Origin: Parvibaculum sedimenti
GTDB taxonomy: Bacteria > Pseudomonadota > Alphaproteobacteria > Parvibaculales > Parvibaculaceae
DNA: 64,000 nt
Direction of reading: 5' to 3'
NCBI RefSeq assembly: GCF_009184905.1
Contig: NZ_WESC01000005.1
Span: 124,001-188,000, forward strand
The translations under genes were made by a program, and so were the position numbers. Shown in pieces: positions 21,176 through 44,027 of this stretch (position 1 is its first letter; each line of letters begins with the position of its first letter). The notes beneath the pieces are model-generated. The model was given only the letters and a program-made list of their open reading frames with translations, was not told the DNA's origin and ran no database searches.

Positions 21176-21299
21176 ATCGCTGCCAACTAACACATTGGAA
21201 CACTGTAATTTTTCTGGGGAAAACAAGTAAAGCCATGTCCATTGTGTGTGCAGGTGCGAAAAGTGCCTGTTTGCGCGGCAGTTTATGGTTTGATAAACA

Positions 21300-21418
21300 G
21301 GAAAGTGCTAGGGTGACCTTGCGTAATCCAGTCCTCTGGATTTTGAGTGGCTCCTATCCACTCTGTTTGACGCCTCCCTGTTAGAACTGAGCCGCGGGCA
21401 TTCCGCGGCTCTTTTTTT
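21300..21418 (+). ncRNA. Candidate small RNA with CCU-rich (anti-Shine-Dalgarno) loops
   Basis: Three consecutive stem-loops end in a T run. Hairpin 1 is AATCCAG/CTGGATT (21325-21331 and 21336-21342) with loop TCCT. Hairpin 2 is GAGTGG/CCACTC (21345-21350 and 21358-21363) with loop CTCCTAT. A single-stranded GCCTCCCTG follows at 21372-21380. The terminator is at 21389-21418. Exposed CCU/CCUCC segments that can pair with Shine-Dalgarno sequences are typical of trans-acting alphaproteobacterial sRNAs. The 5' end is approximate, and the identity with a known family is not established. Confidence 0.5.
21389..21418 (+). terminator. Strong intrinsic terminator (end of the candidate sRNA)
   Basis: GAGCCGCGG (21389-21397) pairs perfectly with CCGCGGCTC (21403-21411) around GCATT and is followed by seven Ts (21412-21418). 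It lies over 200 bases after the DUF1192 stop, which is far for that gene and suggests a separate transcript. Confidence 0.9.
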
Positions 21419-21527: not shown

Positions 21528-22079
21528 ATGAGCGTCGAACGGATAGATCAGGATGTGCAGTTTGCCGGCGGAGCGGTAACGCTCGCCGAATTCATGACGT
21601 CCGGTCTCTTTCAGCGCACCTATCAGGAAGGCATGCAACTCGTCGAGGAGACGTCGGCCTATCTGGATGGTCCGGGGCGCGAAGCCTCGCGCAACCTCTC
21701 CCGCGATGCTTCCCTGGCCTATGCGGGCGAAAGCATGCGTCTCACCACGCGGTTGATGCAGGTTGCGGCGTGGCTTCTCGTCCGTAAGGCCGTGCATGAG
21801 GGTGAAATCACGCCTGAGGAAGCGCAGGCTGAGAAATATCGCCTCGCCACCAAGGAAATTGCGCGTTCGGCGCGGCTCGCGGGCGCCGACAGCCTGCCCG
21901 AGCGCCTTCGCGAGCTCATCGGCCGTTCGGAGCGGCTTTATGCACGGGTAGAGCGCCTCGACTCGCAGCTTCGCGAGCAGCAGGGCCCCGTCGCCGCGCA
22001 CCACCCCATGGCCGAGCAGCTGAGCCGTGTTGAGGCCTTCTACCGCGAGACGCTGGCCCGCAACTTCGGCGAGGCCTGA
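21528..22079 (+). CDS. rcdA: Protease adaptor RcdA (DUF1465)
   Basis: A 183-residue all-helical protein of the DUF1465 family, about the length of Caulobacter RcdA. There RcdA links CpdR-primed ClpXP to substrates such as CtrA during the cell cycle. Conserved blocks are LAEFMTSGLFQRTYQEGMQLVEETSAYLDG, then MRLTTRLMQVAAWLLVRKAV and a C-terminal helix ending YRETLARNFGEA. The ATG at 21528 is chosen because AAGGGGG precedes it; the open extension upstream lies over the sRNA region. With trcR 2 kb away, two cell-cycle genes are close together. Confidence 0.88.
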   Translation: MSVERIDQDVQFAGGAVTLAEFMTSGLFQRTYQEGMQLVEETSAYLDGPGREASRNLSRDASLAYAGESMRLTTRLMQVAAWLLVRKAVHEGEITPEEAQAEKYRLATKEIARSARLAGADSLPERLRELIGRSERLYARVERLDSQLREQQGPVAAHHPMAEQLSRVEAFYRETLARNFGEA

Positions 22080-22156: not shown

Positions 22157-22384
22157 TCAGGCCTTGACGCCGAGATTGCCGAACTTCTGCTTGAAGCGGC
22201 TGACGCGACCGGCGCGGTCGACGAGCTGCTGGCCGCCGCCCGTCCAGGCCGGATGCGTGTTCGGGTCGATGTCGAGGGTGAGCGTGTCGCCCTCCTTGCC
22301 ATAGGTCGAACGCGTCTGGAAGGTGGTCCCGTTCGTCATCGCCACAGTGATCATGTGGTAGTCGGGATGAATGTCTTTCTTCAT
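22157..22384 (-). CDS. rpmE: 50S ribosomal protein L31 (Cys-free form)
   Basis: A 75-residue L31 beginning [14 protein letters not shown] and ending [17 protein letters not shown]. The four zinc-ligand cysteines of classical L31 are absent: the positions read TNGTTF and LDIDPNTHP. Loss of zinc binding is usual in alphaproteobacterial L31, so the gene is taken as functional. It is convergent with rcdA and divergent from the ABC exporter. Confidence 0.94.
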
Positions 22385-40600: not shown

Positions 40601-40761
40601 TTGGGTGCTGCCTGGTGCGTCAGGAACACTTTCTCTCGGGGCCTTACGATCCTTAAGGGAGCTGTCCCTGGGGAGGACCCTGGTCCTCTTCACACGGCGC
40701 CCACCTACTTATGTAGGTCTCCGAGGATCCACGTTCCAACGGCCGAGGTGGCCCCACCCAA
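40601..40761 (+). ncRNA. ssrS: 6S RNA
   Basis: A 161-base RNA gene between zapA and the 5-formyl-THF ligase, the conserved location. The ends TTGGGTG (40601-40607) and CACCCAA (40755-40761) are perfect complements and form the closing stem. Inside is a long imperfect helix with the typical TGCCTGGTGCGT ... CTCTCGGGGCC ... GGGAGCTGTCCC ... CCTGGTCCTCTTCAC pattern around a central bubble. It should bind the housekeeping RNA polymerase by mimicking an open promoter. End positions are good to a few bases. Confidence 0.85.
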
Positions 40762-43954: not shown

Positions 43955-43982
43955 TCCTCACAGTAGTAGTGAATCGTTAAGC

Positions 43983-44027
43983 ACACGTTAAACGAGTATA
44001 TGTTGTTTAACAACACGCATAACGTGT
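43983..44027. promoter_or_regulatory. Nested palindromes, operator-like
   Basis: ACACGTTA (43983-43990) and TAACGTGT (44020-44027) are perfect 8-bp inverted repeats. Between them lies the perfect 15-base palindrome TGTTGTTTAACAACA (44001-44015), which overlaps a third dyad, ACACG/CGTGT (44013-44017 and 44023-44027). The block is strongly AT-rich for this genome. On the minus strand TATACT at 43994-43999 could be a -10. A dimeric regulator of the Nudix gene, yebC, or both is the likely ligand. Confidence 0.5.

Follow-up and report, generated by a model that had tools for sequence, protein, structure and literature searches.

The window, i.e., the whole 64,000-nt stretch of Parvibaculum sedimenti DNA analyzed here, contains a gap of 352 bases between the stop of a DUF1192 gene (21175) and the start (21528) of a gene whose product belongs to PF07323, named DUF1465 in Pfam, which we take to be RcdA; a PF07323 match is also present in Caulobacter vibrioides. 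An earlier sequence-only reading held this gap to be without a protein, and a 49-residue open frame that crosses it has no Pfam match at 0.001. The two perfect hairpins with loops TCCT and CTCCTAT, the unpaired CCTCCC, and the seven-T terminator described in that reading are all present in the gap (Table 1). The next gene but one, rpmE, is a common neighbor, located near the sRNA in 77 of 144 loci by tblastn (49 + 28).

Table 1. Features of the DUF1192–rcdA region, in window coordinates.
Feature	Position	Strand	Remarks
Upstream gene, DUF1192 protein, 66 aa	20975..21175	+	PF06698, 1.7e-20
CtrA-type box	21282..21296	+	TTTATGGTTTGATAA in the window, a degenerate form with 2 mismatches from TTAA-N7-TTAA
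Putative -10 element TAGGGT	21309..21314	+	Near the conserved -10 position
sRNA gene, BjrC1505 family	21321..21418	+	~98 nt; start estimated from homologues
Hairpin 1, AATCCAG-TCCT-CTGGATT, loop UCCU	21325..21342	+	Stem covaries, loop not conserved
Hairpin 2, GAGTGG-CTCCTAT-CCACTC, loop CUCCUAU	21345..21363	+	Stem covaries, loop partly conserved
Seed UUUGACGCCUCCCUGUUA, nearly invariant; candidate site of base pairing	21366..21383	+	Column counts in homologues
Unpaired CCTCCC	21373..21378	+	Read in the sequence
Intrinsic terminator	21389..21418	+	Stem 21389-21411, seven Ts 21412-21418
Downstream gene rcdA (PF07323/DUF1465)	21528..22079	+	PF07323, 1.7e-56
rpmE (ribosomal protein L31), common next neighbor	22157..22384	-	PF01197

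The comparison with Rfam (release 15) that had been proposed from the sequence alone returned RF02356 (BjrC1505, "Alphaproteobacterial sRNA"), which matches 21275-21418 over its full model (positions 1-140) and, at 81.4 bits, exceeds its cut-off of 50; given a match above the cut-off, this is not a new family. A covariance model built here from homologues, R1, matches 21321-21418 (G000:C37:145321-145418) with 94.1 bits, a score that is not independent, since the window copy (L001) is among the 33 source sequences of the model. We regard 21321-21418 as almost certainly a real sRNA of the BjrC1505 family. The fold of 21300-21418 has a z-score of -3.56 (1 of 200 shuffles equally good), and that of 21321-21418, with the start taken from homologues, has a z-score of -4.75 (0 of 200), while the terminator by itself is unremarkable (1 in the sequence vs. 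1.3 expected in shuffles). The left end at 21300 that the sequence-only reading had set does not hold up: positions 21300-21320 lie upstream of the conserved RNA, and as judged from R1, which starts at 21321, the RNA probably begins near that position. Because the Rfam model starts at 21275, 46 nt earlier and over the CtrA-type box, the transcript as annotated may extend further 5′, possibly with the box inside it. The family itself is already known, and is reportedly described by Madhugiri et al. in 2012. In the parts of the literature searched, BjrC1505 is named in a table entry (PMC6337395), and nothing was found on a function of the family, on its control by CtrA, or on a link to rcdA; the linkage to rcdA and the candidate CtrA-type promoter would be the additions made here.

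Among 385 genomes of the class, the RF02356 model has matches in 40 at E ≤ 0.001, with 17 above the cut-off, and in none of 14 control genomes, Caulobacter vibrioides among them; R1, used for the genome search, reaches weak matches (E about 1e-3). A seed-and-terminator pattern adds at least 118 stretches in named genomes (L031-L148), including Bradyrhizobium, Rhodopseudomonas, Afipia, Mesorhizobium, Phyllobacterium, Bosea, Stappia, Roseibium, Devosia, Sneathiella, and a Parvibaculum MAG (L141). Nearest to the window copy over the RNA, among the loci listed, are L006 from the same genus (95%) and L141 (94%). The seed-and-terminator filter dropped L010, L024, L030, and L124 from loci L001-L148, leaving 145 places in 144 loci. 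Extra copies occur in G210 and G001, and L025 (G378) has two tandem copies ~200 nt apart with a perfect box on each.

Because a sample chosen by the sRNA would be circular, a further sample was chosen by rcdA. The gene is present in 92 of the 101 genomes in the order of G361, and its upstream DNA was taken from 30 loci and 62 regions (G419 has two matches, of which the better was used). R1, to which some of these genomes had also contributed sequences, finds the sRNA upstream of rcdA in 87 of the 92 with E below 2e-6 and gives marginal matches in two more (L269 and L270, E 0.05-0.06); no sRNA was found by R1 upstream of rcdA in L279, L293, and L298. All 89 sRNAs are on the rcdA strand, at a distance of 158-1224 nt upstream of the rcdA domain match. 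Counted by genome, the sRNA is present in 88 of 92 with rcdA (in one, at another site of the genome) vs. 2 of 9 without it (G399 and G429), for which a Fisher test gives 6e-7, a value that is only a guide because related genomes are not independent. In L084, a Bradyrhizobium MAG, the sRNA is inverted relative to both DUF1192 and rcdA, through either an inversion or an assembly error.

Base pairing is conserved in both samples. In alignment A1 (33 of 40 dissimilar sequences; seven were omitted, some with the 3′ end cut wrongly), two-sided changes occur in 14 of 21 pairs and in 65 cells vs. 20.6 in shuffles, with a covariation score of 0.291 vs. 0.136 shuffled, and most of this signal disappears when the partners are shifted. 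For A2, which comprises the 89 rcdA-linked sequences (87 distinct) and is fitted to the model, the corresponding values are 20 of 21 pairs, 231 cells vs. 55, and 0.394 vs. 0.154. Two-sided changes are found in 7/7 pairs of hairpin 1 in either alignment, in 6/6 (A2) and 3/6 (A1) pairs of hairpin 2, and in 7/8 pairs of the terminator stem (A2), which is kept in 96.8% of cells. Compensatory changes, the absence of which in relatives had been named as grounds for giving up the sRNA, are therefore present. No claim is made for a further small stem that would close off the seed, because its columns barely vary and 13 of 89 sequences carry an unpairable base at one column. The sequence-only reading had further proposed anti-Shine-Dalgarno loops and had noted the single-stranded CCTCCC, and of these only the unpaired stretch is near-universal here. 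An anti-Shine-Dalgarno-like 4-mer occurs in loop 1 of 3/89 homologues and loop 2 of 51/89, whereas the unpaired CCTCC after hairpin 2 is present in 87/89 (with exact GACGCCTCCCTGT in the seed of 74/89); the conserved anti-Shine-Dalgarno element is this stretch, not the hairpin loops. Two AT-rich homologues (L288 and L292, GC 0.29-0.30) also have the CCTCCCT core.

CtrA is the master cell-cycle regulator in many Alphaproteobacteria. Most of the first 30 homologues, inspected by eye, carry TTAA-N7-TTAA or a near variant upstream of the RNA, and TTAA-N7-TTAA is given as the full CtrA motif in Caulobacter (PMC4287350). The count was made at 141 places (L036, L062, L116, and L138 were too close to the locus edge): a box with at most one mismatch lies 76-90 nt upstream of the seed in 134 and is perfect in 61, compared with means of 3.0 and 0.2 in shuffles, and with 0-4 and 0-1 in ten other intervals of the upstream DNA. 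Both half-sites are conserved, and in the spacer the first base carries 1.0 bit (mostly C) and the other six less than 0.5 bit. In a box-anchored profile, AT-rich -10-like columns lie 26-32 nt from the start of the box, and the RNA would therefore start near the foot of hairpin 1, with the box centered at about -31. A simple sigma-70 scan of the window copy predicts no promoter at the putative -10 element.

The rcdA-chosen sample behaves in the same manner. The box was tested in 85 of the 89 copies (L244 and L278 are cut at a contig end, and L269 and L270 are the marginal matches), and it is present with at most one mismatch in 76 and perfect in 35, vs. about 3.5 and 0.3 of 87 loci in shuffles (the 85 plus two marginal); 9 of 85 have no such box at the expected place. 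The genomes that carry the 87 sRNAs represent 43 families, and in 39 of these one or more copies have a box with no more than one mismatch. With a slightly wider range of positions, the seven-base spacer gives 37 perfect boxes and 79 with at most one mismatch among 85, and spacers of 3-6 and 8-11 give only 0-3 and 5-24, respectively; only the seven-base spacer is enriched. Most CtrA-activated promoters are described as having a single site at -35 (PMC11264516), and across the family a TTAA-N7-TTAA is found in the -35 region. On the basis of these sequence patterns, CtrA very probably controls the sRNA across the family, which would make it a broadly conserved post-transcriptional branch of the CtrA circuit, given that the box is kept in 39 of the 43 families sampled. 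L288 and L292 have a perfect box ~50 nt upstream of where the model begins, which is beyond the strict range of positions. G113 (L016) has a perfect box, yet no CtrA at 1e-60 and no GcrA match.

The window copy itself is a less certain case because its box is degenerate. Two mismatches are reached by about 21 of 87 shuffles, i.e., roughly a quarter, so that the box of the window is not significant alone; the related L141 box also has two mismatches, and that of L006 has one. The genome encodes GcrA as well as CtrA (1.9e-125, 83% identity to a Caulobacter CtrA query sequence). CtrA control of this particular copy is best put as an even chance, and the case for it would be one of descent rather than of its own sequence. 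Elsewhere in the window, a perfect TTAA-N7-TTAA occurs at 43977-43991 (+), between a NUDIX gene (-) and yebC and ruvC (+), and may be due to chance (one match vs. 1.5 expected in shuffles at ≤1 mismatch).

The box could alternatively be the rcdA promoter, in which case the hairpins and terminator would be a cis-acting leader or attenuator of rcdA. The extreme synteny (87/92) fits such an arrangement, as do the placement of a terminator before rcdA, the tendency of the two genes to be absent together (88/92 vs. 2/9), and the description of rcdA as a CtrA target in Caulobacter (PMC4433202, PMC4287350). The spacing of the box, however, is fixed to the sRNA and not to rcdA: across 111 loci, the standard deviation is 3 nt from box to seed and 90 nt from box to rcdA. 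Moreover, in genomes that lack rcdA or carry it far away, the box is still found at the sRNA. In G399, which has no RcdA match, an sRNA with a perfect box adjoins rpmE, and there is a second copy that also has a perfect box (L300, L303); in G391 (L301), the sRNA lies away from rcdA and the box is perfect, and in G041 (L008), rcdA is 41 kb from the sRNA and the box is again perfect, as in all of L007-L009. A weaker case is G429 (L302), with a one-mismatch box at an odd distance. Some rcdA genes also have a second box, between the sRNA terminator and rcdA: among 87, it is perfect in 7 and has no more than one mismatch in 23 (0.4 and 6.4 expected), and in the other set of 111 the counts are 25 and 39 (0.1 and 3.5 expected). 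We consider the leader or attenuator unlikely; the simplest reading of these sequences is that the box and the sRNA form one unit and, since the box persists on the sRNA where rcdA is missing or far away, that the box probably drives the sRNA.

A second alternative, that the sRNA is processed from the 3′ UTR of the DUF1192 mRNA, appears very unlikely, in agreement with the sequence-only reading, which had preferred an independent sRNA. DUF1192 is the commonest upstream gene found (67 of 144 loci by tblastn, a count limited by detection because the protein is short), and SorX, which derives from a 3′ UTR, resembles the RNA in its 3′ half, as does SorY. For both SorX (RF02784) and SorY (RF02651), CUCCCUGUU and the terminator align in this half, with scores below the cut-offs (25.4 vs. 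46.6 and 27.7 vs. 111, respectively). Against processing, the distance to DUF1192 is variable, reaching 2.4 kb in L098, and a conserved box and -10-like element directly precede the RNA. In addition, the upstream segment is without a common fold: 0 common RNA pairs are predicted in the 50 nt around the box (alignment A5, 32 of the 33 sequences of A1; L079, whose box has 3 mismatches, was left out). The compensatory changes, the box at a fixed distance, and the unstructured upstream segment together argue for an independent sRNA.

Assignment of the box to the sRNA bears on earlier work. Conserved CtrA control of rcdA has been predicted (PMC2877005), and a CtrA motif has been mapped before rcdA in Sinorhizobium meliloti (PMC3616915), in which CtrA is reported to bind the rcdA promoter region while rcdA is unresponsive to CtrA depletion (PMC4433202). 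A box that drives the sRNA could explain this binding without an effect on rcdA; the sRNA may be the missing CtrA target at this locus, the alternative there being a separate rcdA box, and the sRNA promoter offers a testable answer to the puzzle posed by that study. We lean slightly toward the broader proposition that the CtrA site assigned to rcdA is mainly the sRNA promoter, in Rhizobiales and in relatives of the window, and that a CtrA-made anti-Shine-Dalgarno RNA reshapes translation. If true, the CtrA sites that previous surveys attributed to rcdA would belong to a broadly conserved riboregulator of the cell cycle, made by CtrA at a single locus next to the gene for the adaptor through which CtrA itself is targeted for degradation. 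In Caulobacter, some non-coding RNAs behind CtrA motifs are known: six are listed in PMC4287350, and CcnA is another (PMC8959179).

The mechanism that we propose begins with a ~98-nt RNA that would be independently transcribed from 21321 and Rho-independently terminated at 21418. We infer that, across the family, CtrA binds the box over the -35 region and activates transcription, most likely switching the sRNA with the cell cycle. The unpaired CCUCCC of the seed would then most likely pair in trans with G-rich ribosome-binding sites and lower their translation. The last step is drawn by analogy, because the seed resembles the anti-Shine-Dalgarno core of alphaR8 RNAs, for which repression by pairing upstream of the start codon has been demonstrated with compensatory mutations (PMC12559287). 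Repression in trans through the seed is likely on this analogy, and the proposal as a whole, a CtrA-switched BjrC1505 sRNA that represses in trans via its seed, seems moderately probable from the sequence evidence. That the RNA is instead a competitor of other anti-Shine-Dalgarno sRNAs sharing its seed is highly improbable: there is overlap between its seed CCUCCCUGUU and the alphaR8 core UUUCCUCCCU, the element bound by the sponge CrfA in Caulobacter (PMC12559287), but a sponge for alphaR8 RNAs would carry the complement rather than the same sequence, and the sRNA could compete only for shared targets or for the sponge.

Candidate targets of seed-based repression were sought at the start regions of selected genes and by pattern. 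Seed pairing fell within the best 5% of 265 background starts for 0 of 23 ctrA and 0 of 21 gcrA starts, several of which are uncertain, and for 4 of 89 rcdA starts, which is ordinary against background. The pattern AACAGGGAGG-N3-9-ATG, containing the complement of ten seed bases, was searched in 101 genomes and gave 122 loci (30 + 92 regions; three sites complementary to the sRNA gene and a few overlapping matches were omitted), 102 of which contain an open frame 50 or more codons long. Sites differing from the pattern by a single base, AAAAGGGAGG and AACAAGGAGG, served as controls; 30 loci were taken for either one, and an open frame is present in 24 and 22 of them, respectively. Solute-binding transporter proteins were considered as a target class and rejected: among the Pfam families listed, which overlap, solute-binding matches number about 33 for the 102 proteins and about 11 for the 46 controls (by eye, about 15 of 46 controls). 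Because the control sites are likewise rich in these proteins, we propose no specific class of targets. The pattern ACAGGGAGG-N3-10-RTG occurs at four sites in the genome of the window, three of them with a frame of 50 or more codons, and none points to a function.

Comparison with characterized RNAs places the window copy closest to BjrC1505 (RF02356), which it matches over the whole model, in structure and seed. The alphaR8 RNAs (SisA-D of Caulobacter; MmgR, RF00519) similarly have an unpaired CCUCCCU core placed between a hairpin and the terminator (PMC12559287), but RF00519 scores 23.6 bits on the window RNA vs. a cut-off of 41, and the window RNA has the longer seed GACGCCUCCCUGUU and a different locus. 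CcnA of Caulobacter is a cell-cycle non-coding RNA tied to CtrA (PMC8959179); as described there, it differs in lying at the replication origin and in acting on ctrA and gcrA through CCCC in loop A. EcpR1 (SmelC291), a Rhizobiales sRNA tied to the cell cycle, is reported to lie between divK-pleD and rpmG and to have the GC-rich loop motif UCCGCCGCAUCU (PMC4414408), and represents a different family. It was our first guess for the window RNA, and was rejected for the wrong locus (the neighbors here being DUF1192 and rcdA) and the wrong seed, with UCCGCCGCAUCU absent by eye. AbcR1/2 (alphar15) share anti-Shine-Dalgarno motifs in unpaired regions (PMC7143759), and differ in locus and in being absent among the Rfam matches of the window RNA. 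Another non-coding RNA is encoded at 40602-40758 (+) of the window, where 6S RNA (RF00013) matches with 70.2 bits vs. a cut-off of 46.4.
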